DNA of 64,000 nucleotides from Polytrichum commune (lineage: Eukaryota > Streptophyta > Polytrichopsida > Polytrichales > Polytrichaceae). This document shows positions 1,828 through 47,276 of this stretch, in pieces; position 1 is the stretch's first letter; every line of letters begins with the position of its first letter. Below the pieces are notes generated by a model. That model worked only from the letters and a program-made list of their open reading frames with translations, was not told where the DNA came from and ran no database searches. The DNA is taken from NCBI GenBank assembly GCA_950295325.1, contig OX485806.1, positions 22,818,001 to 22,882,000 on the forward strand, read 5' to 3'. Made by a program: the position numbers and the translations under genes.

Positions 1828-3526
1828 GGTTCGGAGCATAGCGTCGTGGCTCCCCACCGATCCTCCCCGAGGAGTGTGGAGGACAGCGTGTTGGTCCCCC
1901 CGATTTTGCCCTCGCCACCTTCGCCTCCCAAGACCCGGTTCCTGGTGCTAGACCTCAACGGGGTCCTTGTCCAGTGCGTGCATTGTCCGAGGGTCCCCAC
2001 GGTGCCTTTCTGCAAGCCCGAGGACGCCAACTACGATGGACCCCCCGCGTACATCAAAAGCAAGCTAGTGTACCTCCGCCCGTGGCTTTGGCGCTTCCTA
2101 CAGGTCGCCCTATCCAAATGGTGGGTGATCATTTGGAGCTCCATGAAGTCCGAGAATACCCAGGCTGTCGTGGAGTTCATCTTCAAGGGACTCTAACCCC
2201 CGTGCTTGGTCCTAGGATAGGATTCTTGTAAAACATTATACACCCCCGAGGGCAGGGTTGTGAAGAAGCCCAACAACCCCGCCGTAAACCAATTTCTTAA
2301 GGTCTTGAAGCCAGTCGTATGGGACCAGCGTCCGACCATGGTCGGCTGTCCCTACGACGTTCGCCCCACCCGTGACAACACGTTGATGGTGGACGACAGC
2401 GCTTCCAAAAACATTTTGAACCCGACCTCCAACTTCATAGTTTGCCCGACGTGGACGGTCGAGAAGGTCCGAGACCGCTTTTTGTTAGACCTACTTAAGT
2501 ACATTCAAACGCTCGTGGGGAGCGGACTACCCGTGCCCCGGTTCCTTAGTTGTAATCCGATAGGCGAAAGATACATGGATCCGAAGGACTATATGTACAG
2601 AGAGTTGTACGCTCACGCGAAATATAATAAACTCATTTGAGATACTACATGGTGTGCCATTGTGTGTGATATATTATGCCTCAATTGTATATCGATTTTC
2701 ACATGCTCCCCCCTTCCCCCCTCCCCTTGGGTTTTGTTTTGTTTCCTTTTTTGCGCCAACATTTGGAGCCTTCGATTGAGATCGTCAGCGAATCAAACTT
2801 GGGGAGCTTTTTCTACGAGACCGTCTACGATGCCGCGTCCACCATCGACTACTCCAAGGAGCCTCTTGACGCCGGCGTCGTCGATAGCCCCCCACCCAAG
2901 CAAATCTTCCGGCATTCTCCGTCCCCGTTGCCGCTCAAGGGCATAAATCGCAAATGCGTCCGGACGTCCCCCTCTCGGCCCGGCGGCAGTATTACACCTC
3001 AACGGCGGCTGCGGATGGACGCTCGGCCTACGAGGAGTGGAACCCTTCCTATTCCTTTGCGGGACGCCTTGCCCCTCCTCGCCAATTCCGACGCGAATGG
3101 CCCCGGTGACAAGGTGAACCCCCCCACACATGGTTAACCGCGCATTACAATCATTTTGCTCTAAAAAAATGAACGTGTGACACGTTTGGGTCTTCCTCCC
3201 TAAACTAACACATGTGTTCTTGCTTTGACGCGTTGCAGGTTGCTCCCACCCGTAGACCTATGCGGGCTAGTGCGTCCGTCGAGTTGGAGCGTTTCTACTC
3301 CATGACCAGAAATGCAAGACAGTCCACTTCATCGTATTCGAATTCTTCGTCGTATAATTCGGGCGGCCGACGGAATCCAAAATGTGTTGTTGATGGCGTT
3401 CACCCCAAGAATGGCTATAGTCGCGGGGCGGAGATTTTCAGGAATGTTGAAGCAATGCGAGCAAAAGAAGCCGCAGCAAAAGAAAAAAAAGAAAAAGAAA
3501 AAGAGGCAGTATCCGAGGCTAGATAG
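1828..3526 (+). pseudogene. FCP1/NIF-type HAD phosphatase-like gene, broken
   Basis: One reading frame from about 1828 to 2637 shows the HAD hallmarks of FCP1/NLI-interacting-factor phosphatases. These are FLVLDLNGVLV near 1939 (first Asp box), WVIIWSSMKSENTQA near 2125 (motif II Ser) and LMVDDSASKN near 2380 (the DD motif). Two in-frame stops, TAA at 2194 and TAG at 2218, interrupt this frame. Homology appears to continue directly across both, so a normal coding exon has decayed. After a stop at 2638 a further open stretch (about 2745-3105) ends near a GT, and a second exon follows a CAG acceptor at about 3239. That exon encodes a Ser-rich segment and a Lys/Glu-rich tail ending at 3526. The second Asp of the DxD box is Asn, which is common in plant members. 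The family dephosphorylates phosphoproteins; no function is expected from this copy. The exon borders after 2640 are inference. Confidence 0.55.
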
Positions 3527-3668
3527 GCCATAGTAGGCGTAGGGTTTTGGGCCATAGGCAACATGATTTTGGGTCGCACTATCCAATGGATGTGTGGTGT
3601 TAGCATGCTATGCATTTTACATGCCACACTTTGTATGTTTTTTTTTGCAATAATATAAGTGTCACATG

Positions 3669-3680
3669 CACTACAAGAAA
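3669..3680 (+). repeat. Left terminal inverted repeat of the CACTA element
   Basis: CACTACAAGAAA, preceded by the target duplication ATG. It pairs with 23260-23271 (CACTACAACAAA on the minus strand), differing at position 9 only. Confidence 0.9.
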
Positions 3681-3903
3681 ATCGACAAAAAGACGACTTT
3701 GTTTATGATTATTTTTTTAGTCGTTGAGGACAGAAATGACTATTATTTTTTGTGTTATTACGGACGAGTTGTAACGGACAGTCAGTCGTTTTGGACGTGA
3801 CGTCGGAACGCGGATGATATAGTCATTGAGGCTAGTCGTAAACATGGATGAATGACGTGGCTGACTGTCTATGATGTATGCATTGCGTGGCGTTACGTGG
3901 CAA

Positions 3904-4089
3904 CACGTGGCGTTACGTTGTATCCACGTCGACATCCTAGTTGGCACGGGTGCCATGTCACCGAACACGTGGCGTTACGTGGAATCCACGTCGACATCCT
4001 AGTTGGCACGGGTGCCATGTCATCGAACACGTGGCGTTACGTGGACACCACGTCGACGTCCTAATTGGCACGGGTGCCATGTCACCGAA
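3904..4089 (+). repeat. 62-bp tandem repeat with G-box core
   Basis: Three consecutive 62-bp units start at 3904, 3966 and 4028; a fourth begins at 4090 and decays. Each full unit contains ACACGTGGC, a G-box/ABRE-type CACGTG core, plus a second CCACGTCGAC box. Further CACGTG motifs follow near 4123 and 4184. The array lies in the left subterminal region of the CACTA element, where TNPA-type proteins bind in characterised En/Spm elements. Whether these units bind a transposon protein or host bZIP/bHLH factors is inference. Confidence 0.8.
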
Positions 4090-4264
4090 CACGCGGCGTC
4101 CAGGTCAATTGGCCACGTCATCCAGCCACGTGGCATGAATGGTATATGTCGGTGTGCGGGTTCACATGTGGGCAAGTGATATATCGCCACGTGTCCATTA
4201 TGTAGTTTTTATGTAGTCGTTTTGAAGTTCTTATTTTGTTATTTTGTAGTTATTATGTGGTCAT

Positions 4265-4374
4265 TATTTAATCGTTTTATAGTTCCTATTTAATCGTTTT
4301 ATAGTTCCTATTTAATCGTTTTATAGTTCTTCTTTAATCATTTTCTAGTTCTTATGTAGTCGTTTTCTAGTTCT
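4265..4374 (+). repeat. 22-bp tandem repeat, five units
   Basis: Units of TATTTAATCGTTTTATAGTT plus CC begin at 4265, 4287 and 4309. Two diverged units follow at 4331 and 4353. The motif resembles the surrounding GTAGTCGTTTT and AGTCGTTT words of the element's subterminal DNA, so this is probably an expanded subterminal binding repeat. Confidence 0.75.
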
Positions 4375-5259
4375 TAGTTAGTACTTGTGTAGTCATTTTA
4401 TGGTTGTTGAACAGTACATGCCGCAGACGTGAAGTTGAATGGCGTGGCCTTCTGTGTTCTAAATGACTAAGAAGTCACTATTGAACAACTACATTCTAGT
4501 TATTAGAGCTCGGGTTAATGCCATCTTTGAACACATTCAACCATTGTTTACTCTTTTCTTAGTTGTGCATATCATTGCGTAAGCCGAGGTGAGATGGGTA
4601 GCATTGTGAATGCATGCAACCACCATTCAAACATTGCCATGCAGCCTCAATATGAAAGCATGAATCATACATGAAACACAACACATCTTTGAATTTGATT
4701 GTGGGGTTCCCAACAAAATATGTAAGAGTGTTCATATGTGGGTTCTCAGTGTTTAGTGTAGGGAAGACCTTTATCTACTCCATGCTAAGTACGTCTAAGG
4801 AAATTCACGCTGCTCTCAAACTCCTCTCATTCCAAAGTGTGCTGCCTCCCACTACGTCTTTAATTACCCACTGGTCTCCATCCTCGTGTGGGTAGGCAAG
4901 CTTCACATCACCTATGTGAGCAGTTGTCACATCAACTTTATAGCAAAATTGCGGAATCACCTTGAAGTGGAACTTGTCCACACCCCCTACGCCACTGATT
5001 TTACCGGTTGCCACCTTGCGTCTCTTGTTTTTCGGACTCATGAGGTGCACACATTGCCCAACATTAAATTGTACCTACACACCATCCTCACAACAATCAA
5101 ATGCACACCCAATGAACTGTAGTGATCATTACAACAATGTTTCAGCAATGGATGCCACTACTAGAACATGTATTGCCCAACATTGAACTGCACCCATACA
5201 CCATCCACAACACAATCAATAGCATACCTCATACAATGTAAGTACCTCATACAATGCTG
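4375..5259. other. CACTA left subterminal spacer
   Basis: Inside the CACTA element between the subterminal repeats and the TNPA-like gene. Open frames on both strands around 4800-5050 are short and match nothing I recognise. Confidence 0.35.
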
Positions 5260-5340
5260 AATGACTGCTTAAGGACGGCTTAAGGACTGCTGAATGACTG
5301 CCGAATGACTACTGAATGACTGCTCAATGACTTCCAAAAA
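5260..5340. repeat. GAATGACT-type repeat cluster 1
   Basis: A run of CTGAATGACTGC-like words about every 10-13 bases (for example at 5261, 5291, 5301, 5311). The same word family recurs at 8425-8575, 15112-15186, 17260-17350, 18128-18240 and 21575-21745. It lies just beyond the 3' end of the TNPA-like reading frame. Confidence 0.6.
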
Positions 5341-6439
5341 GTTCAGGGATGGATTGGACAAACCGGACGTGCAGGCAATGTTGCATTGCCTGATGTGCTA
5401 TCCCCTGTTTTCGCACCCCTTCCCCGCAATTCCATCCTGTTTGAACCACCAATGTCACCTATCTTACTTGGTGACACGATCTTGGGGTTTTTGCTCTCAG
5501 ATTCCGGAGATTCTCCCTCCCCCACTGTCGCAACAAGGGGGGCATCCTCAGCCAACACAACAACTTCTCCGCCCTCTACATGCTCACTCTCCACAATTTG
5601 CTCCAGCCCTTTCCCTCCTCCCAAACTCCCACCTCCACCACTGATGCATTTCCCACTCCCACCTACCTTCTGTGCTTCTCCCCCAGTTGCGTTTTCCACA
5701 TTCTCTCCCTTCCCCCCCCCTCTCCACATTCTTCCACCCCACTCCCACCCATTGCAATGTTGGGAGGGCGGGTGCCATGTTCTACAACCCCACCTACAAG
5801 AGCTCCAACTTCCTGCCTCCCCTCATCCGGAGTTATTGGCTGCCCAGTGGCCTCCGCTGCTGCAGCTCGCCTCTTCACACCTCTCTTTGTTGTCGTCCCT
5901 TTCTTTGGTGCATTCTCATTTGCTCGGCCCTTGCTTCCCACCTGGCTGTCCTCTTGAGACATGGTAACCCCTTTCAACTTGGCATCTTTGCTTCTAGTGA
6001 ACCTAGTATATACCAAGGGCTCGTGCTCATCTTCGCTACGAGCGTCTGTGTCATCCACCACATCTATTGGCAACGTAATGGAGGTTCCTATGCCAGCCGG
6101 GCGGGATTGGGCTTGATTCTCGCACGTAGACTTAGGAGCGCTTCCATGAATGCCCTCGTTGTTGACTGCCGTGTTGGGGTCGCTCACAATGGTCTGACCC
6201 CGTAGTGTAGTAATTAGGCTCGTCACCATAGTAGCCAAGCTATTCAACGTCAGCGTGTTTGCTTTCAGAGTTTGCTCATTGCTCAACATCACCTCAGACA
6301 TTTGATGCCTAAACTCGGCCTGGGTTAGCTCCATGGCAGCAATGCGTGCTGACATCCTTCCTGACAGGGCTTGCTGTGCACGCCACAAACAAAGACTTCC
6401 AACCTTAGAGTGGGATCCAGTTGGGGTCTGCTTTAGCAT

Positions 6440-6790
6440 TCATTTCAATACAATTTCACCACTACACAATGACACGTGGACTACTGACTGCAGCTACACA
6501 ATGACTCATTAAGCACTAGGTGCAACTACCCAATGACTTAAATACAACTGTCAATACATTGCAACAACAACACATACAGCAGGATCTACCATTACATAAT
6601 GACACATAAAATACATGATACGACTAAACAATGACACATAAGACATTGAATTACGACTGCACAATGACTAGTATTGGCTACTGGAAACGACTACATAATG
6701 ACACATATTGTGTAGGATACAACTACAGAATGAAACAAGTATCACTCCATACATACAACTGAACAACAACAAGTAAAATGCACATGCAAA
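6440..6790. other. Intron-like spacer rich in ACAATGAC words
   Basis: Between two coding parts of the TNPA-like gene. Words such as ACACAATGACAC, CACAATGACT and ACATAATGACAC recur about every 20-45 bases. It is therefore another ATGAC-rich spacer like the other clusters in this element. Confidence 0.5.
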
Positions 6791-8424
6791 CATTTTTTGG
6801 ATCTTACAGAGGTGCATGCCCCAGTCTGCTCTGATTCCTGCAGTTCCTCCGCTATTTCCGTAATCCCGGGACTCCTCTGTCTCTTCTTCCTCTGTGATCA
6901 TGAATACACGCTCAATTAGTGGCCCACATTTCAAAGGCACCAAGCCCAGTCCAACATAATGGCGAAGGGACACTAGAAAGTCATTACTAATCATTGCATA
7001 CACAACACTTACCAACTGCGCTTCTTTCCCAGCTTTGCCACCCCGCCCAACATTGGACTGGTTCTTCACTGACTTCCTTGCATTTGCCATTCTCATTGCC
7101 TTTTGCTCCGTTTCTGGTTTGGACCAGTACTCACAAAGACGTGCCCACTGATCGGGCTCAATGTAAACCGGGCATTGTTTTTTCCACTCAAAAACCATGC
7201 CTTCATTTTAGACCTCTCAGTCTTCATCTGCCTCTTTACTGCATTCTTGAATCCCCTCTCTGATAGTTTGTTCCCCACATATTCAAACTCATTGTCCAGA
7301 GCATTCCTTAGTTTCTCAATGCTGCAAGGGGATTGGTCCTTCCACTCCACACAACTCACGTCCAATATCCTAGGGATGAGGCTCCTAAGTGCTTCGTCAA
7401 ATTCATTCTTACCTTCGCAACCTCCATCTATGCCTCCACCCGCCTTGACACTCACCTTCTGCGGTTTCTGTCCCACAGCTTTCCTTGCATCCACTGACTC
7501 CTCTATTTCCTTCTTATGCGCTCTTCTCGCTGCCCTTGCCTCGCTCTCTGGCTTCAATGTAGGACCCTCGTTATTAGGGGCCGCGGGAGCTTATTGTGGC
7601 TGCATCCAAGGTCCAGGAAATTGTTGAGACATCATCCATGGGTTGGGCTGACCCATCATCCACGGGGCCTGTTGCCCCATCATCCACGGGGCCTGTTGCC
7701 CCATCATCCACTGTTGTTGTTGTGTGGATGGCGGCGCCATCCATGGTTGTTGCATCCAGGAGGAATTGGCCGGGAGTGCGGCTTCAGTTTGAGGAGGAGC
7801 TGTTGTTTTTGGTTGGGAGACGTGCGCCTTCTACATTGAACCAACATTCTCATGAGCTACTTAATGACTGCTTAATGACTCAGAGACTAACCGGCAATAA
7901 AGCATGGAAATTACCTTTTTGGCTGGGCTCTTCAATATTTGCCTTGTGCGCCTCCTTGTTGCACTTGACCCTGGCAGATCCGAGGTGCCTCTTCGTAGTG
8001 AGTGAACATCTTCATCTTCTTCCTCATCTGCAAGTGGCTCACCAACCACACAATCAGGTGCGTACGCACAGTTGCGGTGGCAATGACGATCATGCAGGGT
8101 AGAGAAAAGTCACCGTCCAGAAATGTACCGAAATTGGAGCCACTAGAATCTGCCGTGCCTGTTCAATCAGAAATTGCAACGTGGTTTAGAGGGGTCGCTT
8201 CAAAGGGATCAGCTCTAGTGCTCAGCCAATAAAAGATGTTAGTTGAAGGCTACAAACCCTTGTATATTGTTCCACCTTTGTGAATGTTGCAATGTCCCGG
8301 CTCCATGAATGCTGGAGCTCATGGAAAATGTCAGTTGGTCAACAGTCCCTACGCAATATATGATGTAGGGATCATATAGGTGCGGTTGGTCCTAGGATTT
8401 AGGGAATGTCTGGGTTTTGAATGA

Positions 8425-15186: not shown

Positions 15187-17050
15187 AAATAGGCATACGA
15201 AACAAGAATGGATTTCATCACACTTACGTATAAGTGCGGTATATGAATCGGGTGGAATCGATTATGATATATTAAAAGGTCCACTAAAATTAGGCAAACA
15301 GGGTGAAAAATGTTGTTTATTTCAGGAACATGGTAAAAAGGGGTTGGAATTGGAATTTACTTAGGGCCTGATTGAAATTACTTTTACAAAACACGAACAG
15401 GTTTGGACACACTTACGTATAAGTGCGGTGGATGGGTGGGGTGGAATCGATTATGATGATCTATTTAAGGGTCCACTAAAATTAAGCAAACAAGGTGAAA
15501 ATGTTATCTATTTCAGGAACAGGGTAAAAAGGGGTTGGATTTGGAATTTACTTAGGGCTTGATTGAAATTACTTTTACAAAACACGAACGGGTTTGGACA
15601 CACTTACATATAAGTGCGGTGGATGGGTGGGGTGGAATCGATTATGATGATCTATTTAAGGGTCCACTAAAATTAGGCAAACAGGGTGAAAAATGTTGCC
15701 TAATTCAAGAACAGGGTAAAAAGGGGTTGGAATTATGATTTACTTAGGGCCTGATTGAAATTACTTTTACAAAACAGGAACGGGTTTGGACACACTTACG
15801 TATAAGTGCGGTGGATTGGTGGGGTGGAATTGTGTGAGAAATGTTGTCTATTTCAGGGTCGGAAAACAGGGTAAAAAGGGGTCGTAATTTGCATTTACTT
15901 AGGGCCCGATTGAAAGTGGGTATAGGAAACAAGAGTGTGTTTGGACACACTTATGTATAAGTGCAGTGGATGGGTGGGGTGGAATCGCTTAGGGTCTATT
16001 GAGGGCATGGATAAAAATAGGTGAAGGGTGTGAAAAACATTATCTTTTTCGGTCTATTTCAGGATTAGGGTAGAAAGGGGTCCGAATTTGGATTTACTTA
16101 GGGCCCGATTGAAATTACTTTTACAAAACAAGAATGGGGTTGGACACAATTACGTATAAGTGCAGTGGATGGGTGGGGTGGAATTGATTATGATGTATTT
16201 AGGGAATGGATAAAAATAGGCAAACAGGGTGAAAAGTGATGTCTATTTCAGGGTTGAGGGTAAAAAGTGGGTTGGAATTTGGATTTATTTAGGGCCCAAT
16301 TGAAAGTAGGGATACGAAAAAAGAATGGGGTTAATGACACTTAGGTAGAAGTGAGGTGAACGGGTGGGGTGGATTTGATCTGGATGTATTTAGGGGTGGA
16401 ATAAAATTAGGTAAATAGTGTGATCTATTTCAGGGTTGAGGGTAAAAAGGGGTCAGTTTACAGGGTAAAAAGGGGTCGTAATTTGCATTTACTCAGGGGC
16501 CGAATGAAAGTAGGTATAGGAAAGAAGAACGGGTTTGGACACACTTAGGTATAAGAGCATCCTCACTCGATCTAGGTAAAGCTCACTGCAAACCTAAACC
16601 TATCTTTTGACTGACCTAAAATTAGAAACTTAAATTACCATCATTAGAAGCACACCTAAATAAACGTGAGATATTTCTCAAGAAAAAAGAATTGTAAAAA
16701 TTTGACGTAGGTGAAATCCCTCATTGAAAACACCACATTTTCAAATTTTAGAGGGAGTGTACCAAATCTTGCTTTAAAATGGAAAGATCCTCCCACACTC
16801 CCTCCAAATTTTTGACATTTAGAGGGAGTGTGGGAGGATCTGTCCATTTTTAAGCAAGATTTGGTGCACTCCCTCTAAATTTTGAGCAATTTTAAGCAAG
16901 ATAGGTCTTGGTTTGCAGTGAGCTTTACCTAGATCGACTGAGGATGCTCTAAGTGCGGTGGATGGGTGGGGTTGGATGGATTATGATGTATGTAGGGACC
17001 GACAAAAAATAGTGAAAAAGGGTGATCTATTTAAGGGTTGGATGAATGCG
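15181..17050 (+). repeat. About 190-bp tandem array, eight units plus a remnant
   Basis: Successive units can be aligned on the motif CACTTACGTATAAGTGCGGT at 15221, 15410, 15601, 15793, 15948, 16147, 16338 and 16542. Spacings are 189, 191, 192, 155, 199, 191 and 204. Each unit also contains GGTGGGGTGGAAT, a GGGTAAAAAGGGG motif and TTTACTTAGGGCC. A Tourist MITE at 16555-16949 interrupts the last unit, whose remainder resumes at 16953. ACTTACGTATAAGT is nearly palindromic. The array lies between the captured-gene interior and the TNPD gene. Confidence 0.85.
16555..16949 (+). mobile_element. 395-bp Tourist-like MITE (copy in CACTA)
   Basis: Terminal inverted repeats GAGCATCCTCA / TGAGGATGCTC and a perfect 3-bp TAA duplication (16552-16554 and 16950-16952). 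Both are features of PIF/Harbinger-derived Tourist MITEs. A second copy of exactly the same length, in reverse orientation, is at 54725-55119. The interior holds further inverted repeats (CTCCCACACTCCCTC / GAGGGAGTGTGGGAG). An open frame of about 60 codons inside is not regarded as a gene. Confidence 0.92.
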
Positions 17051-35780: not shown

Positions 35781-37065
35781 CACTTCATATTTTGGATGTG
35801 TCATAGTACATCCCGTCCTTTCCTCTCATTTTAAACCTCGGTGAGGTCTTCAGAGTACATCCCTTCCTTTCCTATTATAGAGTCAATGTCCTTGGCCTGT
35901 TGAAGTCAAACTACTAATGGAATGCCCAATATGGAGTAACAAAAGTTTCTGGCTATAGTGGGCTCGCTCTAAAGGACCATGTTCTTCGGATTCTTCATGG
36001 ATTGGTTACACTACGAGAATTATTTAGGTGGTCTTGCCACATTGTTCTATTCGTTGGATGACAATAAAACTATGAATGTAGATCTAGAGTCTACCGCTTT
36101 ATATAAATAATACAATTGTTCAGTGGGTAAGAGCACGTGATCGATCCTTGAAGTGCTAAGATGAGTCCACCCACAATGAGGTCTAAGTTTGATTGTAACA
36201 AGATCTTCTAGAATGATCTTTTAGCCTAAAATGCTTGAAGTATCTCTCTTTTTAGAATACGATTATTATTATTATAAAAAAACTCTCGTATTTCATGCTC
36301 TCTATTCCAATTTAAAAGTGACTTTCATTGGTAACTTCATTGATAGGTGGATTTCTTGCAAGGTACTATGTGATGATGACCTAGTCATGCATCTATGGAG
36401 TAAGGTCAAAGACATCCATAGATGACCATGTTCATTTAATTGCTCACTAGGATAATTCTAATGCCGACATGGATGACGTCTATATATTCTAAGCAAACGG
36501 AGTGAAGGTGTATGTGGTGGCAGCTTTGTGATTGATTACCCACATAAGAGTTTTGACAACTGCCGTAGCCAAGAAAGCATTTAGATAAGCGGTTATTGGT
36601 CAGCCCATAGGTTGATTGCGTGTTCTAGTAATCTTAGCGCTTCAAAATTTGTAGCAATTTCCATACTCATGAAAGGAAAAAATGCATTTTCTTTAGATTT
36701 TGTTTCTCATTGCAAGACAAGTATCCCATGTTTTTACTCCTCCTAAATAGATTGAAACTCTCTTATTGTATCGGTTATAGATGCCTCAACCTTATTCATT
36801 GAGGCCTCTTGGCATCAACAACAAGCAACCAAAAGTATTAAATTGAGGGCAGGATTAAATACCATAGTTCTCTAGCAGCTTGGGCTGAAAATAATTAATT
36901 TTAAAAATGCCTTAATTTATGGGAAATCAACTTCGTTGACTATCCAAAAAAAATAACATTTAAAGATTTCCTAAAATCATAATAATGCAAGTGACATTTA
37001 CTAAAATCCAACAAAATAGCATCAAATAACTACAAAAATGTCTTCATGCAGCATCAATCTCACCC
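35781..37065. other. Intergenic, nothing recognised
   Basis: AT-rich sequence up to the left target duplication of the MULE. A TACATCCC(G/T)TCCTTTCCT motif occurs twice near 35812 and 35859. No coding region is supported. Confidence 0.35.
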
Positions 37066-37150
37066 GAGGGAAGCTATCTTATGAGCGATGAGCAGTGAGC
37101 GGTGAGTGGTGAGCAGTAACACATGAGCAATGAGCAGTAACATATGAGCA
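37066..37150 (+). repeat. Left TIR and subterminal GAGCAGTGAGC words of the MULE
   Basis: Starts with the TIR, then (A/G)TGAGCA(A/G)TGAGCAGTAACA-like words repeat to 37150. The counterpart is 44930-44974. Confidence 0.7.
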
Positions 37151-37284
37151 ATGAATCCAAATTTAGTAAAGACATACGGGTTTAGGGTACACAACCAGAA
37201 TTTTGACAAATTAATTGCATATTTTCAATTGTAAATTGCCAATATTTTAAATGATGCACACGTGAAAGGGCCCTATTGCCATCG

Positions 37285-37462
37285 ATCATTTAAAACACTT
37301 TCAATCCATTGCTGATTTTTATTATAATAATTCAAACCAATACATGTTACTTATTGACATCCTTATACATGTAGTTACAACCAACACTTGCACAACCACT
37401 CACATTCCACAACACCAACAAGTTCAAGTAGGTGCATAACTTCATTATACGTATATGTAGGT
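37285..37462. repeat. Direct repeat of the transposase gene tail, copy 1
   Basis: Aligned to 37861-38040: TTTTTATTATAATAAT, TTTATTGACAT-like, CACTTGCA and TATATGTAGGTG occur in the same order. The second copy overlaps the end of the transposase frame (stop at 38008), so the gene's 3' end was duplicated inside the element. Confidence 0.65.
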
Positions 37463-37559
37463 GCCATAATTGTGAGCCACTCAAACCGCTCACAGGTTGA
37501 GTTAAGGCCCACAATCTACAAAAGCAAGGAAATTAGATATTAGAACTAATCAATATGTA

Positions 37560-37760
37560 GGTAGCTACTAGGTTTTGAGACATCCGCCTGTGGATGCGAG
37601 TTGTATAAGAGACTGGTATTAGGTCTGGATCAACCCCGGTTCGAATCCGGTTGGTTACATTGACTGGTGCTATCCCAAATTGAGCTAGTGATAAAGCAAG
37701 AATAATCTATAGGCAGATACCAAGAAGAGGTCACTACGCGGATGTGCGTAGAATCTTCTT
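37560..37760 (+). other. Possible tRNA-derived SINE remnant
   Basis: GGTTCGAATCC at 37638-37648 is a perfect polymerase III B-box. About 50 bases upstream, GTGGATGCGAG is only a weak A-box. No tRNA cloverleaf can be folded around it, so a tRNA-derived SINE or a chance match is more likely than a tRNA gene. It sits between the two direct repeats of the transposase tail. Confidence 0.3.
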
Positions 37761-38007
37761 GATTATTTTTTATTTTTAAAAACTTGTTATTATTTATCCG
37801 TGTGAATCAATCAAACCGCTCACGGTTGGGTCGTAGTCTAAATGGAAATGAAGTTACTGAATCATTTGAAATACTTTCAGTCCATTGCTAATTTTTATTA
37901 TAATAATCCAAACCAAAACATGTGATTTATTGACATTCAAATATATATTGCTTAATAGAACACTTGCAATACTACACACATTCTACAATACCAGCAAGTT
38001 TAAGTAG

Positions 38008-40190
38008 TCACATGACCTCATTACAGGTATATGTAGGTGTATGAATGAATTTGTCACTCTCGTAATCTACCTTGTACAAAAATCTAAACATATAATAAAG
38101 ATGTTTACAATACACCCATTTTCCTTTCTTTTCCAATGCATGAGAGGACATTTTCGTGAAATCCGGGCATGTGCAATGCAGGATGTCGCCAATTATGACA
38201 TGGTAGGTGATATCATGCTTGGAGACAATGCTAATTATCACTCCAAAACCCGGATATGGAATGGCAGTGACCCCAACCACATAGTAACCTTCCATGAGTC
38301 TGGCGCTCTCCCATTTGTTTTTGTGATCCGCCAGCGGTGCTGTTGGATTACGACGCATTGTCTTCCCAAACCTGAATGTAGGGTGGGCGTCCGGGTTTGG
38401 TGGCATACAAAAATACGAACGAGGGATGGGGAAAGTTGCGATTGTTGAAAGCCTACGACAAGGGGACAATGCCTCCCTCTGCTGTAGTTGAAATCCAGCA
38501 TCTTCAAGTGCCAAAACTTCCTCTCTCGATAAATTGGTACCTATCTTCACCGGCCACGTGTTGGGTACTATAGGCCAATCCAATACATATTTCTTCTTAC
38601 TGCCACTCACACAACGCTTGATGTCGTCAGGGCAAAACCAAAATTCATACTCCTCATTGTTGGGAGAGCAAAATTCGTTCCTGAGCCCTTTGTATGTTGG
38701 AGCAGGTGTGCCATGTTTCCCAGTCCCGACTTTGGCATTGCGCATAGTCCTTGTAATGGCTTGTAGTGCCCAACATTGTTTGGCTGAGTTGGATGGCAAT
38801 CTTGCAATGTGCCACTTAGAAGCAAGACAATCACTCTCTAACACAGATGTAATATGAGTCACACCATGAATTACAGAACTCAACGATTCCTCTATGCGTT
38901 GACGAGTTGCTCGGGTGTTGGGACGAGGAATGAAATACTTCACTTTGTCAAGTCGATGAGAGTCACAATCAACATCCGGTGCTAGGTTAAGTTTGCGGTT
39001 GGTGGAACTAAAGAGCTCTGACCTTTCCAATGCACAATCTCTAGTGTTAACGTCTTCTGCCCTTGGATAAGACTTCATGGCATCAGCCAACATTTTTGGA
39101 TCTCCACACCTGGCAGCCGCTTTGAGTTTCAAGGATGTCGAATCAGGACCTTTACCATCAGACCTCCCTTTCAACCATGTCCGGTAATTTGCAATTTGCA
39201 TGAAGGCACGGATCATCGTCCACTGTAGCTTCATATAAACAAGTCATCTTCTCGCGGACTGTTGGAGCCATTTGTTGTGTACAGTCTCTGCAAGGTTGCA
39301 TGTTGGTATTTTCGCACGTTCTTTTATTGTCATATCCTATGGACAACACACAAATATGAGGATAAGAAAAGTATAAGATATATATAACAATGGAAGAAAA
39401 ATGAATAACATTGAATAATGAATTTTGATATGTACTTACAAATAGCATATGACCACCCCATTGTCTGTAACGAAGGTCCCAAAACCCAACCACTCTGAAA
39501 GGCCAAGGATGTCTTCTTCCGAGGCAACTCCGGATGACAACCACCAAAAACAAATCACATGATATTTAATCTCGGCGTCATCCATTATTTTCGCGTCTTT
39601 GTAATCCTTGCATATTTGTTTGTGTTGAAACTACAAGGATGGTTTTATATACTTTTGGGTCACCTTATCCAAACTCGCAGACCAATGGAAAAGACATGTA
39701 TGCTCACGTGCAACCATGGGTAGACTTGGGTCACCATCCCCGTAAATCGTCCTCACCGCATTCCAATTAGTTTGAGCACTATCAACCATAAATCCTTTGA
39801 AATTTACGTTTGGTACATCATTTTTTGCCATAACAAAATTCAAATTCTTCCAAAAGAGAATTTGTGCTGCACCATTTTCAGATTGCATGTCACAACACGC
39901 AATGGTTAACACTTTACAATATCGACTGTCGTACACATGGCAAGTCATTGTCGTCCAGTCTTTCAAACATACGACATAGTCAAACATAATCCATGAATTC
40001 TCCGTATCCCCCCGACTTGCATCTTTTCCACAAGTTCCACACCACTACCTGGAAGGTCTACAGACATCTTGAAAACAAGCACTTTATCTTTTGATTGCCC
40101 TAGGAACCAACTACCATGGACGAACTTAAAAGCAGAGTGGTCTTTAAGTGCCATAATACTATCCATAATTCTCATTCCACTATGCAAAAA
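38008..40190 (-). pseudogene. MULE-type transposase with SWIM zinc finger, broken
   Basis: Reading on the minus strand, the first part contains HGSWFLGQSKDKVLVFKMSV. The core follows with VNFKGFMVDSAQTNWNAVR and then EHTCLFHW, consistent with a DDE Asp and the Cys-x-x-His block of MULE transposases. A helical segment FWWLSSGVASEE and WGGHML precede an intron (TTT/GTAAGT near 39436, CATAG near 39343). The long last exon starts in the MTIKERAKIPTCNLAETVHN region and ends with the SWIM finger CTCPDFTKMSSHALEKKG plus CKHLYYMF (Cys-x-Cys...Cys-x-His). Lesions: a frame change near 39975, an in-frame TAG near 39634 where Gln is expected, a frameshift near 39488 and a stop near 39240. MULE transposases cut and join element ends; SWIM fingers bind nucleic acid. 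The final exon of about 400 residues is intact and well conserved, so the decay is probably not old. Confidence 0.72.
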
Positions 40191-40787
40191 ATGCTTTGAT
40201 CCATATACAAAGTTACGATTAGAGCAAACTCCTACATGTGAAGTTCAACCACGTATCGTCTCTGAATGCAATGAGGACGATGAAGAGGAGGAAGATTATG
40301 ACAAAGGCATCGACGAAAAGCAAGCCACACAATACGAAAAAAAAAAAAACAATCTACTGAGGCGGACATGTAGGTAGGTTGTACGAACGAAATGGTAAGA
40401 GAATAACTTTAAAATGAAAATAAATTTGGAGGTATATAATGTATACTATATTGTACACGCCGAGAATACGATTCCAACGGTATATAGCATGAACAAAATG
40501 ATTTTATTTTGCACGTTTTAGAGCCAAAAAATAATTAGAGCATCTTAGATTCTTCTAAAATCTTCAAAAAATGAAGATTTTATGCATGAAATCTAACCAT
40601 ATTAATTTCAGTAGACTTTGACGATTTATGTAAAATTGATATCATCTCCAAAAATTCTGAAACATTTTGGAGTAAATGGCAAGGCTATAATCTATGTACT
40701 TGATTTTTTGTGGAAATAAATTAGAATATGTGAAAAAGTTATAGCAACTCCGGAAAACAACTCAAATCAAGGTGCATTTCTCTTCCA

Positions 40788-41480
40788 AATGGGTAGCCGT
40801 TAATGGCCACCCTTTCTATGATGCCAACTTTTGTGTTCTAGTTTAGGGCGGCCGTCAACAGCCACCCTTTTGTATGATACTAACTTCTCTGTTCTAGTTT
40901 AGGGCGCCCGTTAACGACCACCCCTTCTTGGGTTTCAGTCTTCATTTAATAACATAATTTCTTTGAAATAAAATTACATATATACATATATTTCTTATGT
41001 CTGTTCCATCTAAAAGTGTCGCCATTAACAGCCACCCTTGGTTGCATCTCATATTTATTGGTATATGTGTTTCTTTCTTCATGTATACACCCATTTCCGT
41101 GATTTTTTGTCCTTCAACAAGGGTAGCCGTTAATGACCACCCTTATTGAAATTTCATATTCTTTTCTATATGTGTTTCTTTCTTCATGTATACACTCATT
41201 TCCTTCATTTTTTTTTCTTTAACAAGGGTGGACGTTAACGGCCATCCTTATTGAAATTTCAAATTCTTTTCTATATGTGTTACTTTCTTCATGTATACAT
41301 CCATTTCCTTACTATTTTTTTTCCTTCAACAAGGGTAGCCATTAACGGCCACCGTTATCGAAATTTTAGATTATTTTCTATATGTGTTTCTTTCTTCATT
41401 TATACACTCATTTTCTTAATGTTTTATCCTCCAACAAGGACGGCCGTTAACGACCACCCTTATTGAAATTTCAAATTCTT
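40788..41480 (+). repeat. Tandem repeat around a GGNNNCCGTTAACGGCCACC core
   Basis: Eight units carry AGGGTAGCCGTTAA(C/T)GGCCACCCTT or variants, near 40791, 40848, 40905, 41015, 41121, 41226, 41332 and 41438. The first are about 57 apart and the last four about 105 apart. The longer units also share TATATGTGTTTCTTTCTTCA. The core contains the palindromic GTTAAC and an inverted GGGTGGCC/GGCCACCC arrangement. It lies between the two divergent genes of the MULE, where a shared promoter would be expected. Confidence 0.75.
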
Positions 41481-41632
41481 TTGCATATATGGTTTTCCCT
41501 TATGTATACTCTCACTTTCATAAATGTTTTTGCATATTATTTTAGTTTGCATATGTGATTTCTTTCATATGTATATATTTATTTTAATTTGTTTTTGTCT
41601 TTTATATGGGTGATATTTTTTGTGCTTTAGAT

Positions 41633-44301
41633 ATGGAAGTTGTACCTCTTTCAGAAGATCAATTAAAATTGCAATTGCATGCGTTTTTCAAAAAAGAAAC
41701 TATCAACATATCTTCCCGTCTTGAACGGTTGAGGTATCAACCAAAGATGAGAATCCTAAGTTGACTTAAGAAAAACTTTGGATGTTAGCAATTTTGGCAA
41801 TGGATACATCTATTAAGATTAAGTGGCTTGAGAGATGGAACAGTTCACTGGCTCTTCATGAGGCTCTCAAGTTTCCGAAACCAAAATTCAATAATATAGA
41901 GTTTTCTAAGTGGCTTCATAAAGCTACTTTGTGGCCTCAGGTAATAATTTTTTGTCTATGTTTTTTTTTTTTAAATATTTTTTTAATCATTCAAATTTTC
42001 TAGTCTTTATTTTGTATTTGGCAGTTGGCTATTGAGACCGAGAAATTCTTTGATGCTACTGTGGTTTATATGCATGTGTCCATCAACTATCTTCCAAATG
42101 ATATGGATCCTTTGTCCATTATTTTTTATTATGTGAAGGCAATGCGCATATCATTGTGGGATACTACATTTTTTCGTGAATTTGGTGTAGATAAAGAAGT
42201 TCACAAAAATCATAACATTCACAAACAACTCAATTTCAATCCAGTCATGCGAAGGGTGTTTTATAGGTACTTCAAATATGTTCTATTTCCTGCTAAAGCC
42301 ATTTCTAAATCTCCCACTTTTTTGGCTAATTATTTGGATATCGAAAGTGAAGAATGCATGTTCACAGAGGGGATCATGAAATCTTGGGATCCTATGCATT
42401 TTGAAAAATATGGGTGGTATTTGAATTCTCCTCTTAAATCACCTCTCACTTTTGATATTGCCCTTTGAAATTTTATTCAACCCGCCCTCAAGGGTGCAAC
42501 TAAAATTACTCCCTCCATAATGGATGAGGATGTAGCCAAAATGCTAAAAAAAAGTCTAAGCATGAAAGATCAATCGTCCTAATTCATGATAGCGATGACG
42601 ATGCTCCAATTTAAAGCAGTCTCAACAACCTTGTAGTTACTGAACCTTCTTATTCAAATCTAGAGACAATGTTTCATACTTCAAAGCGGCAGAAAACAAC
42701 CCCTTCTCCTACCTTCGATATGCCTCCCAAGCTTAGAGGTATGATGGATATCTTGCCTCCTTTACCTGCAAATCATACATTTTTGGATTTAATCTTAAAT
42801 GATTCTTTTGTGAGGATTATCGAGGATAAGAAGCAAACATGTATATTTCGTGTACCATCTGACGACATTGTGACTTTATTTCGTGTACCAAAGGTGAGTT
42901 CATTTTATTTTACAGTTTTTAATTTATTTCATGTTTTATAAAGTTTCATTCATATTTCATCACGTTATTTCATTGTTTGCTTTCAATTGTCGTCTTCATT
43001 AATGAATTGTAATATTTATATTTTATCTTTGTAGGTTGGTGAAGGTAGATAAATTTTTTTTTATGGCCAATTGCAAAAGAAACTTGTTGTGGACCTCATT
43101 ATTACGGATTACCCAGATGGTATTCGGGTTCCAGGTGTCTCGGATCCGCCATCTCAAATTCCCCCTTGGAATACCAACATTCCAAGTTTTCTCAACATAT
43201 TGATGGCATTTGTTCTTACCTATCTTCATGATGATGGAACATTTTTTTGTTTTATCCTGACAGTTTTGCGGTGAAGAGAGAAGTGGCAGGATTCTTCAAG
43301 AACTATAAGTTCAAGATCAAGGATGAATGGACTATCATTAATTGCTTGCACTAAGTAAATCCTATAAATCCGTCCAAAAATGTAAGTAGTAATTATGCCT
43401 TTGAATTTCAAGGCTTTGTTATTGGTTCGATCATTTTCATTTTCCATTGCGAGGTAACCTCAAGAACTTCTGATCACCATGGATCCTTCAATTTCAAAGG
43501 TTGATTTAGCCACAAATGACGTTCTCTTCAACTCTATTACTACGGAAACTCAAATATGTAAACAAAGAAATGGCAAGCCATGGAGGGGTACAAAGGAGAA
43601 GTCTGAAGTTTTAATGAAGTTATTTGTTCATAATTTGAGTCATGTAGGCGGTATTGTGGCAGACATGATTGCTTCTACATGTATTGTATTTTACAGTATC
43701 CAATTATTAGTTCATATGTTTTTTAATTCATACTTCAATGTTCGTATTTTCCTTATTAATATTGTATTAAACGGCTCATCCATGTTCTTCTATTAGACCG
43801 GTTCATTCATCCAATCATCATATTCTAGCATTAGAAAGTGATGCCGAACTCTTTGATGAGGTACTAAAGCCTCTTCAAATACCTACAACTGATATCTCAT
43901 GCGATGGTATGGACTTTGATGATGATACTCCAATAGAAAACACCGCACTACTTAATTTATGTGAGTAAGTTTTTTCCTTGTTTTTTTTTCAACAACTTCA
44001 GTTATAAATTATAGATTTTGTATTCTAATTTGTTGTTACATATTTTAATACATGGTTTGTTGTTTGCAGTTGGATGAATCCATCGCCGATACAAACCTCG
44101 TCATTTTATGGGCACCGTGGATTATTGAGAAGCCCCTCTCTTAGTCCTCATAGCCTCCCTGTGTATGCTGAGGCTTTAGCTGAAGCTTATGCTAATGCTT
44201 CATCTATTTCATTTTCAATTTCACCTTCATCTCGTACATATTACGGAACTAGAGTATGTGCTTATTTTGAACTCAGTGCATCTGAGTCTGACGATATTTA
44301 A
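41633..44301 (+). pseudogene. Beta-class DNA amino-methyltransferase-like gene inside the MULE, degraded
   Basis: Exons follow GT-AG borders: about 41633-41940 (CAG/GTAATA), 42025-42540, 42600-42894 (AAG/GTGAGT), 43035-43381 (AAT/GTAAGT), a short one ending at 43453, 43470-43673, about 43799-43968, and 44071-44301. The N-terminal half is helical and unassigned (IKIKWLERWNSSLALHEALK, YRYFKYVLFPAKAISKSP). Exon 4 holds KKLVVDLIITDYPDGIRVPG, in the position of catalytic motif IV (D/S-P-P-Y), followed by DDGTFFCFYPDSF and DEWTIINCL. The later exons hold GGIVADMIAST, in the position of the AdoMet motif I (FxGxG), then RPVHSSNHHILALESDAELF and DEVLKPL. Motif IV before motif I is the order of circularly permuted beta-class N4-cytosine/N6-adenine methyltransferases. 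A Ser-rich tail ends at 44301. There are stops near 41768, 42466 and 43352 and frame changes near 41770 and 43255. The catalytic box is DYPDG where DPPYG is expected, so this copy is probably inactive. Confidence 0.55.
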
Positions 44302-44929
44302 GTTTGTATTCTTGATTTGATTTTTGATTTTTGATATTTGATTTCCAAGAACTTCAACAATTTAAACCTACTACCCAATTTATATTTACAATCCACTTTT
44401 GTTGTTCTTTATATTTTGGACTTCGTAAATGTCACCCTCATGATGGTGTTATGATGTATTCAAATTTTACATTGATGTGTATTATAGTGAGACATTCTAA
44501 CTACTACACTTGTTTTCAACATGAGTTTGCTTACACATTGTCTCCAATTACATTATTATTATCTCAACAGTTGAATGTATATTAGTTCATTTTTAGTACA
44601 AAATTGTTATAGCAACATTCTCATTTGTTGTTCATTTGGACTATAGACCTTTACATGTAATTCCATAGTCATAGGCCCCCAACCGATTTACAAACCATAA
44701 CCAGGAAAAAATTGAAGGCTCACAGGTTCACGCTCGCATGCTCACATACTATCAACCCCGAGTCGTGTACATATTGGTCTTTTTCATTGCTCACTACTTG
44801 TAATCTAGCATTCATATTGTTTGTCCTCCCCAATCTTCTTATTATTAAACCCTAAAAAAATATTTCTTTAGGCCACGGTTATAGGATACTAGGGGTCCTA
44901 TTACCAAATATTTTGTTTTCTTCACCGCT

Positions 44930-44974
44930 CAAAAATTACCGCTCATCGCTCACCGCTCACAAGATAGCACTCCC
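44930..44974 (-). repeat. Right TIR of the 7.9 kb MULE
   Basis: Reverse complement begins GGGAGTGCTATCTTGTGAGC and continues with GGTGAGCGATGAGCGG. It is followed by the target duplication CAATCTCACCC. Related ends recur at 45239 and 51293. Confidence 0.75.
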
Positions 44975-47276
44975 CAATCTCACCCATAGTCTAAAAATAA
45001 TACAAGCATGAATTTGCTCCATAAGTCATGTTGAAACACTACCATAAAAACAAGAATGAGACAAGCAAATGGGAGTGAATGTCTAACTTACTTTAAAGTA
45101 CATTTTGAATCTGCCCAATTTTGGAATATTATTTTTGGGGATGCCTAACTTACTTTTACACTTCAATTAATTATTCGGCAGAATGGTGCCCAAGCTGCTA
45201 GAGAGCTACTGTACAGGCCTCCTTACACACATGACCAAGGAGTGCTCGCATTTGAGTGATGAGGTTGGCAAAAAAATTGGAGATACACCCGCTAGTATCC
45301 TATAACCATGGTACTTTGGCATAAATCATAACAACTATGTTAATAATAGTCTCGGAGGGGTCCGCCTTCTTGTGTTATATAACCACGTGCGTACAAAGGG
45401 TGTTTTTATGGGGGCTATTTACTTCCTCATTTGGATTTTAGGGAATCATTTAAGTTGAGAGAAAAAACTTCTTCACCAAATATTTAGCACCCTATAGGTA
45501 ATTATAAAAGAAAACCTAGACTATTTCAAATGATGCTAAATTACTTATAAAATTATGATTTACTCGTTTTGTACAAAGGCAAACTTAAAACTCCAATATG
45601 ACATGACATATATCCACGTTGCTATATATTGGTGAAAGAAGAGTGTACACATCATAACCCAATCGCTCAAATTTTTTCATCCATTTTGCATATGTGAATA
45701 TACTCATTCTATTTATTTTTTATTTCTTTATTATTTTCGTCATATTAATTTCTTTCTACCTCAAAGCTGATGTGGGGGATTTCCCCTTATATTGAATTAT
45801 ATATGATCACATCTGTCACAATTTAAGTAGGATATGGTTGATCCAACGTCTATATAGTTTTTCTTGCCAATGAATACAAAGCACCCTATAGTTGTTGTCA
45901 CGTGGTTTCTACTTTTTGGCCGGTCACCCCCCCCCCCCCCGAGATAATAATATGAGTGGAAAACTCACACAAAATGCAATCATCCCCATCAATGCGGCCT
46001 TACTTTACTAATAGAATCAACAACCACAAGCTTGGCATGAGAGTTTGGAGATGATTTTTAATTTTTAATTTTTGAAATTGTCATTAGATTCAACATTCAT
46101 TGAAAAAAAAATTCAAGCATATTCCAAGTATTGAGCATGGTCTAGACTATATTTCTAGAAGTCATGTAAATTTGATAAATGAATTGATGGAGGCGTTGCC
46201 AAAAATTTGGAAACTGAAGTTTTTAGACATAAATGGAAGTACAAGAGGAATTCACTCACACATATCAATGTCCACAAAGTAATGAGCACATTCAATGTGG
46301 TCAATGTGAAACTATGCATAAAAACTTTGTAACTACCTACATTGCCTCCTCTTTGTCACAATCATGTTCAGTTCACGCCTTCACCTCGTCATCTACATAT
46401 GGTAGAATGTGATGATCATAAACCAACGACCTGCTATAATGTGATGTTGTTGAGGTTGGATCCACGACCTTTGTAACCACCTTTGCATGTCATGGGATAA
46501 TTATGCAAGTGGGAGGGGAAATCACATTTTTCATTTTTTTTCATTATTGGAGAATAACATGTTTAATGACTCCAAAATCAAATAAACATGGAACGAATGG
46601 CGAACTTATGTACTCTATTGGAATTTCGTGAAAACTTTCCAAATAAGTTCCTCATCATCATTGAGGGAGATCATCTTCGCTAGTGAGCCACCACTATGAG
46701 GCGATAGAGTATTGTATGATGATGCCAAGATGACATCAAATATGGCAGAGCCTCTCTCGAATGCGATGAAGTATTGTTGCTATACCAACAAGCATGAATA
46801 AATGCATCAACAATCCACACTGATATAGAGATTGTTTTGAGTGCTTGAAATCCATGAATAAATTTGTAAAAAATCACATATAGATGCATAAGCAATAGTA
46901 AATGATCATGGTTTAGTCAACACCTTTATTAAGAAGTGCGGTTTCTTTTTTTGTCCACCTCTTCATGACACATTTACTTCCATAATTTGCATTTATGCAA
47001 TCGTGTGAATGAAAAAGGTTGGTAACTCTATTGGAATTCTCTCTACTACTCATGTTAGCTATCCCTTCTAGTCTGCACTGCCCTACTACCTAGACCTTAG
47101 TATTGGCATAATACCAATGACATTATTCTTGAAGGTTGCATCGGTATTGCCGACCTCTTGACATTGGTCGAGACTTATAGATGTACAACTTTATCATTTG
47201 GTAGGCTTACAACCATATCTTTGTACTCATTACTTGACATATCTTTTGACTTACTCTCTCTTATGTCGGCAATGTT

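Follow-up and report, generated by a model that had tools for sequence, protein, structure and literature searches.

A decayed Mutator-like transposon of Polytrichum commune and its relatives, which pair a transposase with a ParB/methyltransferase-like protein

We analysed a 64,000-nucleotide stretch of the Polytrichum commune genome (contig OX485806.1, positions 22,818,001 to 22,882,000; the window hereafter), in which sequence reading delimits an element of ~7.9 kb at 37066-44974. This element is a dead, decayed deletion derivative of a large family resembling Mutator-like elements (MULEs), which has recently active members. By computation, we found in this family a recurring pair of a transposase gene and a second gene, two folds in the second protein (ParB-like and, in a low-confidence model, methyltransferase-like), an altered catalytic motif in the latter fold, arrays of palindromes in five of the six second-gene types examined, and the exchange of second gene and array as a cassette. 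The second protein is best read as a putative sequence-specific DNA-binding regulator, perhaps similar to VANC of Arabidopsis, and not as a methylase that marks the ends of its own element.

The window element and its full-length relatives

The original prediction, made from the letters of the window, described an 11-bp target duplication, matching inverted ends, a SWIM-finger MULE transposase, and, on the opposite strand, an eight-exon gene with the motif layout of a beta-class amino-methyltransferase. The duplication was confirmed to be exact on both sides (Table 1), and the similar ends, reading GAGGGAAGCTATCTTATGAGCG on the left and GGGAGTGCTATCTTGTGAGCGG (reverse complement) on the right, were recovered by a repeat search of the window as the inverted pairs I3, I5, and I14. 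The same ends were found in a copy of ~12.7 kb (C5 copy), which has an exact 11-bp duplication of its own (CAATGGGCAAC), and two diverged relatives, the C3 copy (~13.8 kb, of which ~5 kb is N) and the C7 copy (~15.9 kb), likewise have related ends and duplications (CATAGATAGCG and CATTGACGCCT, respectively). Because of these independent copies, the ends and duplication in the window represent more than a chance match. Thus, the MULE hallmark of an 8-11 bp duplication with terminal inverted repeats was found, with exactly 11 bp, in four elements (window, C5, C3, and C7). Another relative, the C1 copy, is truncated at the left end, and its duplication is a 9-bp partial match only. In each of the C5, C3, C7, and C1 copies, the transposase is encoded on one strand with the second gene divergent to it; exon 1 of the C5 second gene has one stop and one frameshift.

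The minus-strand open reading frame (ORF) of the window terminates, as judged by eye, in a SWIM-like C-x-C...C-x-H pattern. About half of the transposase is gone from this copy through the 40218/40225 deletion, and the Pfam SWIM model gave E 1.2 for the window ORF and E 0.075 for a relative, both under the cut-off. A D, D, CxxH pattern was seen in the transposase alignment A4 by eye only, no MULE model of Pfam matched at E<=10, and a PDB search with a transposase returned nothing useful. A KDZ/Zisupton origin of the transposase was considered as another possibility. The eight-exon gene was not borne out in the window copy, which has suffered deletions and in which exons 4 to 6 are broken by stops and frameshifts; the reading frames of the relatives suggest about eight exons for the second gene.

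Table 1. Positions of the features of the transposon within the window
Feature	Position	Strand	Basis
Left 11-bp target-site duplication, CAATCTCACCC	37055..37065	.	Sequence
Terminal inverted repeat, left end, GAGCGGT-type repeats in subterminal position; approximate inner border	37066..37104	+	Repeat search; same end in C5 copy
C-terminal portion of the transposase in a 411-aa frame, SWIM-like motif included	38008..39243	-	ORF; 105 genome matches
Remnants of transposase catalytic (DDE-like) region, frameshifted	39472..40169	-	tblastn with the region of a relative
Deletion scar, ~2.7 kb missing relative to full-length copies (N-terminal portion of the transposase with its upstream region)	40218..40225	.	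blastn against C1 and C5 copies
Eight GGCCGTTAACGGCC-type palindromes in a degenerate array between both genes, partly in 105-bp tandem units	40795..41455	.	Motif scan
Second gene exon 1 remnant, ParB-like domain deleted	41634..41744	+	Reading frames; comparison with relatives
Deletion scar, ~1.1 kb missing (exon 2 together with most of exon 1 and ~half of exon 3)	41744..41746	.	blastn against C1 and C5 copies
Second gene exon 3 remnant (boundary approximate)	41746..41939	+	Reading frames; comparison with relatives
Second gene exon 4, with stops	42025..42895	+	Reading frames; genome matches
Second gene exon 5, with DYPDG replacing DPPY in the region of methyltransferase motif IV; stops and frameshift	43035..43378	+	Reading frames; motif rows
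Second gene exon 6, with GGIVADMIAST in the motif X/I region; approximate borders	43397..43689	+	Reading frames; genome matches
Second gene exon 7 (approximate)	43797..43968	+	Reading frames; relatives
Second gene exon 8 (approximate)	44070..44301	+	Reading frames; relatives
Terminal inverted repeat, right end; approximate inner border	44922..44974	-	Repeat search; same end in C1 and C5 copies and one SG4 element
Right 11-bp target-site duplication, CAATCTCACCC	44975..44985	.	Sequence; exact match to the left one

The pair of transposase and second gene recurs across the genome. The window-type transposase (Tp1) has 105 genome matches, the other 104 being 84-90% identical to it, and a further transposase type (Tp3) was listed with 121 copies. 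A divergent second gene lay within 20 kb of 89 of the 105 Tp1 copies, compared with 1.06 by random placement, and of 79 of the 121 Tp3 copies, compared with 1.26, so that the outcome that would have refuted the original prediction, the lack of any second copy of the pair, did not occur. These counts were obtained from 108, 150, 142, and 140 second-gene rows, excluding second pieces of one copy, and from the complete transposase lists (105 and 121 rows). With up to ~150 candidates scored per search, the counts are lower bounds. The second-gene matches merge to at least 436 loci. Over 882-920 aligned residues, the second genes of three subfamilies were 47.2% (SG3/SG2), 51.6% (SG3/SG1), and 57.9% (SG2/SG1) identical.

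The two domains of the second protein

The full second protein has ~950 aa and comprises an N-terminal ParB/sulfiredoxin-fold domain, a long middle region, and a C-terminal methyltransferase-fold domain. The first of these, which is deleted in the window copy, had been missed by the original prediction, as had the palindrome array of the window. Sequence profiles were blind to the ParB-like domain, as neither Pfam nor NCBIfam returned anything for it, PHROGs gave only a ParB-like family at E 0.4 with an SG6 exon, and a PDB profile search gave unrelated rows only; therefore, structure comparison was needed. The exon 1 domain was modelled from 23 aligned exons of the genome (alignment A2, by direct DNA translation), in which DGNHR is nearly invariant, with a predicted local distance difference test score (pLDDT) of 80.8. 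In Foldseek with this model, the first 43 rows were ParB, Noc, PadC, KorB, sulfiredoxin, and SbnI entries, apart from one Pyrococcus protein, which we take to be of the same superfamily; the best row had E 2.5e-3 and a probability of 1.00. VIA against C. crescentus ParB gave a Z of 9.4 over 94 residues with a root-mean-square deviation of 1.9. On these model-based comparisons, the exon 1 domain is predicted to have the fold of the ParB/sulfiredoxin superfamily.

For the C-terminal domain, the exon of a relative was used in a fold search, in which each of the 26 PDB rows with E<=1e-3 was an N6A/N4C DNA methyltransferase and CcrM was the best (1.5e-6). Motif IV precedes motif I in the low-confidence model, and this permuted order is that of the beta class, in agreement with the motif order that had been noted on the plus strand. 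Among sequence profiles, Pfam PF01555 (N6_N4_Mtase) reached E 1.5e-4 for SG2, under the curated cut-off; two DpnA-type rows of the PDB profile search were weak (E 0.59 and 0.66), and PHROGs gave E 0.003. The fold search supports the descent of the plus-strand gene from beta-class amino-methyltransferases, as in the original prediction. The catalytic (D/N/S)PP(Y/F/W) motif IV was found in none of 36 rows, representing 34 distinct loci (the window and L011 are the same locus, as are L026 and C3x). Its position is occupied by EYPDG in 15 rows, DYPDG in 11, and eight further forms 1-2 times each, so that [DE]YPDG accounts for 26 of the 36 rows and spans SG1-SG3. The motif I (FxGxG) site takes the forms DLTAGTG, ADLTASTG, ADMTASTG, VDLTCSTG, and VDINAGVG. 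The methyltransferase part of SG7 was not found within the stretch examined. A tblastn search of phages gave 111 records, of which the best 20 had E 0.3 to 8 and covered query residues 165-241 only, and two records checked correspond, by coordinates, to genes of 240 and 258 aa. This phage search thus revealed no prokaryotic donor, no scan of prokaryote genomes having been made.

Of 45 pairs of SG3 ParB-like exons, the 38 within 0.15<dS<1.5 gave a ratio of nonsynonymous to synonymous divergence (dN/dS) of 0.084. The SG6 ParB-like exon (252 aa) is identical in four copies, including the query, on four chromosomes, and SG6 therefore moved recently; it is a young subfamily and perhaps still active. 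The identical copies are located at G000:C1:37680603, C4:39567788 (L052), C6:23005063, and C7:11394347.

Palindrome arrays and the exchange of second genes

In the window, GGCCGTTAACGGCC-type sequences with up to three mismatches occurred nine times, compared with 0.82 expected, and eight of the nine lie inside the array between both genes. Tandem arrays in the same intergenic position hold the palindromes AATAAGGGTGGCCGTTAACGGCCACCCTTATT in SG1, GGGGTGCCGTTAACGGCACCCC in SG3, CAGACCCTGTGCGTTAACGCACAGGGTCTG in SG4, and CTGTCGGATCCGACAG in SG6. Exact sites in the genome numbered 52 for SG1 (22-bp core), 44 for SG3, 490 for SG4 (20-bp core), and 374 for SG6, and the reversed-pattern control gave 0 for each. 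SG7 served as a later test, and each of two copies contains TGTCTCGG-NN-CCGAGACA repeats. Thus, five of the six second-gene types examined have a palindrome array of their own, with SG2 as the exception. The SG2 intergenic region of L025 (G000:C3:13620600-13630500) contains ~5 kb of N at ~1860-6900, which makes any array unreadable there, and two other SG2 copies were therefore used instead.

We compared the palindrome clusters with the second genes by using 50 of 52 (SG1), 44 of 44 (SG3), 50 of 490 (SG4), and 50 of 374 (SG6) sites, the SG4 and SG6 lists covering part of C1 only. With the types SG1-SG7 assigned by hand from identity bands and SG5? remaining an uncertain class, a second gene of matching type was present within 12 kb of 20 of 21 SG1 clusters (5 of the 20 by SG5?), 18 of 19 SG3 clusters, 10 of 11 SG4 clusters, and 5 of 6 SG6 clusters. 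Overall, a second gene stands no more than 12 kb away from 53 of the 57 listed clusters, and it is of the cluster's own type for 48, of the uncertain SG5? for 5 (SG1-type), and of another type for 0. The SG6 arrays reach 18 units, and an additional array, apparently intronic, was observed inside the second gene of SG3 (C7x 15315-16222, within L027) and SG7 (L085 7515-8297).

The transposases of SG1 and SG4 elements are 95-97% identical, whereas their ParB-like exons are 39% (another SG1 copy) or 44% (the own exon of the C1 element) identical; those of SG3 and SG6 elements are 95% identical, with ParB-like exons at 35%. Because near-identical transposases are accompanied by dissimilar ParB-like exons, and because SG1 and SG4 elements have the right end in common, we conclude that the second gene and the array have been exchanged as a block between near-identical transposases.

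The eight decayed palindromes of the window have 16 differences from GGCCGTTAACGGCC, counted by eye, of which 12 are C-to-T or G-to-A, 6 of these at CG. This is the pattern that would arise from the mutation of methylated cytosines.

A possible regulatory role and its alternatives

We propose, with a probability of about 0.45, that the full-length members encode, along with the transposase, a divergent ParB/altered-methyltransferase protein acting as an element-specific regulator, which by analogy would most likely be a VANC-like anti-silencing factor. The ParB-like domain, perhaps gated by a nucleotide, would load on its cognate palindromes and spread along the element, and the methyltransferase-like domain would serve as a DNA- or SAM (S-adenosylmethionine)-binding module, not as a methylating enzyme. 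In this way, the chromatin and expression of each element would be under its own specific control, and the most likely effect would be anti-silencing, as exerted by VANC in VANDAL elements.

Several observations weigh against this proposal. The palindromes may accompany their second genes by plain linkage, since the two lie side by side, and conservation of the palindrome above the spacer inside the arrays was looked for and not found, the conservation values inside/outside the palindrome being 0.86/0.83 in C5, 0.71/0.87 in C1, 0.78/0.81 in the window, 0.88/0.88 in SG3, 0.77/0.96 in SG4 (3 units), and 0.86/0.90 in SG7. For these reasons, palindrome binding is something that we infer. Two SG2 upstream regions have no such array. 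No ParB fold row reached E<=1e-3 in Foldseek, and the model of the last domain has a pLDDT of 50 with an in-frame intron left translated; the negative conservation control and the modest E of the ParB fold both lowered our confidence. Motif I is partly retained (DLTAGTG, ADMTASTG), and some SAM chemistry is therefore possible. Among the second-gene matches listed, no divergent partner was found for 16 of 105 Tp1 and 42 of 121 Tp3 transposases, of which 3 and 7, respectively, have a second-gene match in another orientation only. Finally, ten recent SG3 copies of the methyltransferase exon are near neutral (dN/dS 0.79 at a mean dS of 0.016), as expected for decay after insertion.

Among the alternatives, an autoregulatory repressor of the divergent promoter, exerting KorB-like control of copy number instead of anti-silencing, would fit the position of the arrays between the divergent genes and the presence of KorB among the fold matches, but it is somewhat unlikely, as up to 18 units in SG6 and the extra arrays inside the second genes of SG3 and SG7 exceed the needs of a simple operator. 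A cofactor of transposition acting on DNA in the manner of mudrB, for which the palindromes would be internal sites of synapsis or replication, could explain why the second gene stands beside most transposase copies and why it is constrained in SG3; we regard it as unlikely because it is the second gene, rather than the transposase, that the palindromes track, and because SG1 and SG4 elements share their right end. An active N6A/N4C DNA methyltransferase, binding to the element that encodes it and marking that element, as the original prediction had it and as has been suggested in print for algal genes, is slightly less probable still. The fold matches are active enzymes, motif I partly survives, and excerpts of the Ectocarpus paper propose binding and modifying of the protein's own sequence (PMC12477816), but the canonical motif IV is replaced throughout the 36 rows, with one substitute prevailing across three subfamilies, and a methylase marking the element ends is thus not supported. 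The recent capture of a full-length host gene by a single MULE is highly improbable; MULEs are known to capture genes, according to part of a review (PMC13317346), but the second gene occupies hundreds of loci, mostly divergent to transposases where these were found, and its types are strongly diverged (47-58% identity over ~900 aa among the three subfamilies, with the ParB-like exons of other types down to ~34%). The capture is unsupported because of this divergence and because most of the transposase copies found have the second gene alongside. The earlier observation was hence confirmed in part and its interpretation supported in part.

The anti-silencing regulator could be extended to a plasmid-like ParB-parS system in a plant transposon family, in which the altered protein loads on its own array, spreads, and excludes silencing, and in which mutually compatible specificity types arise by cassette swaps between nearly identical transposases; we consider this extension possible but tentative. 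If the second protein does bind its own palindromes, one genome would provide many natural protein-site pairs, and a bacterial-type partition fold would have been turned into a transposon control system. Sequence-specific anti-silencing would perhaps then be documented in MULEs for a second time, independently of the first, and the ParB-methyltransferase accessory class would extend to land plants and be able to lose its catalytic motif yet stay constrained. Transposons may, in that case, carry a sequence-specific control system of their own.

A ParB-methyltransferase gene opposite a transposase is an architecture already in print for algal transposons. Ectocarpus Sola1, as described in excerpts of PMC12477816, has a gene on the other strand from its transposase, and the product of 1104 aa combines a ParB-like domain with a DNA methyltransferase domain. 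The likeness, drawn by description, lies in both domains and in the gene orientation, whereas that system belongs to Sola1 of a brown alga and the present one to a MULE-like element of a land plant with a replaced motif IV, type-specific palindrome arrays, and cassette exchange, features that set it apart from the excerpted algal description. In the partial literature consulted, we found neither the pair reported for MULEs of land plants nor any mention of the altered motif IV or palindromes specific to a type; the word methyltransferase is absent from the main text of a MULE survey (PMC6446971), and both methyltransferase and ParB are absent from the excerpted text of a review (PMC13317346). 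VANC, which induces hypomethylation of its cognate transposons, is likewise a protein encoded by a MULE family, the functional likeness being by analogy. According to parts of PMC5735166, the targets of this transposon-encoded protein are often tandem repeats that vary between related transposons and evolve with the protein, and these parts mention no ParB or methyltransferase domain, unlike the protein here; the VANDAL transposase has SWIM, as stated in an excerpt of PMC6446971. Bacterial ParB, Noc, and KorB share the fold, a GxxR-type motif (here DGNHR), and clustered palindromes, but here a eukaryotic transposon encodes the domain, joined to a methyltransferase-like one in the same polypeptide. 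The permuted class-beta fold is shared with bacterial beta-class enzymes and rotifer N4CMT (8s9n, among the fold matches). In excerpts of PMC8885841, motif IV across methyltransferase relatives reads SPPY, DPPY, NPPY, DPPY/F, or DPPW, and N4CMT is a host gene with SPPY, in contrast to the transposon gene here, which has no PPY-type motif. DIRS retrotransposons, as partial sources describe them, are also a eukaryotic transposon group with a DNA N-6-adenine-methyltransferase domain of bacterial type. They are tyrosine-recombinase retrotransposons, unlike the present element, and we know of no ParB domain in them.

Outside the window element, an inverted pair of 26 nt (36860-36885 and 45188-45213; 88% complementary) flanks it on both sides, and a short inverted-repeat element around the transposon may have been the host of its insertion. 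Elsewhere in the genome, one LHCII protein has 8htu_U of Physcomitrium patens as its best single-domain match among rows with E<=1e-130, nearly unchanged over 213 residues, which suggests a moss-like plant. Moreover, fourteen light-harvesting protein genes of equal score lie within ~95 kb at G000:C5:1751760-1846160.

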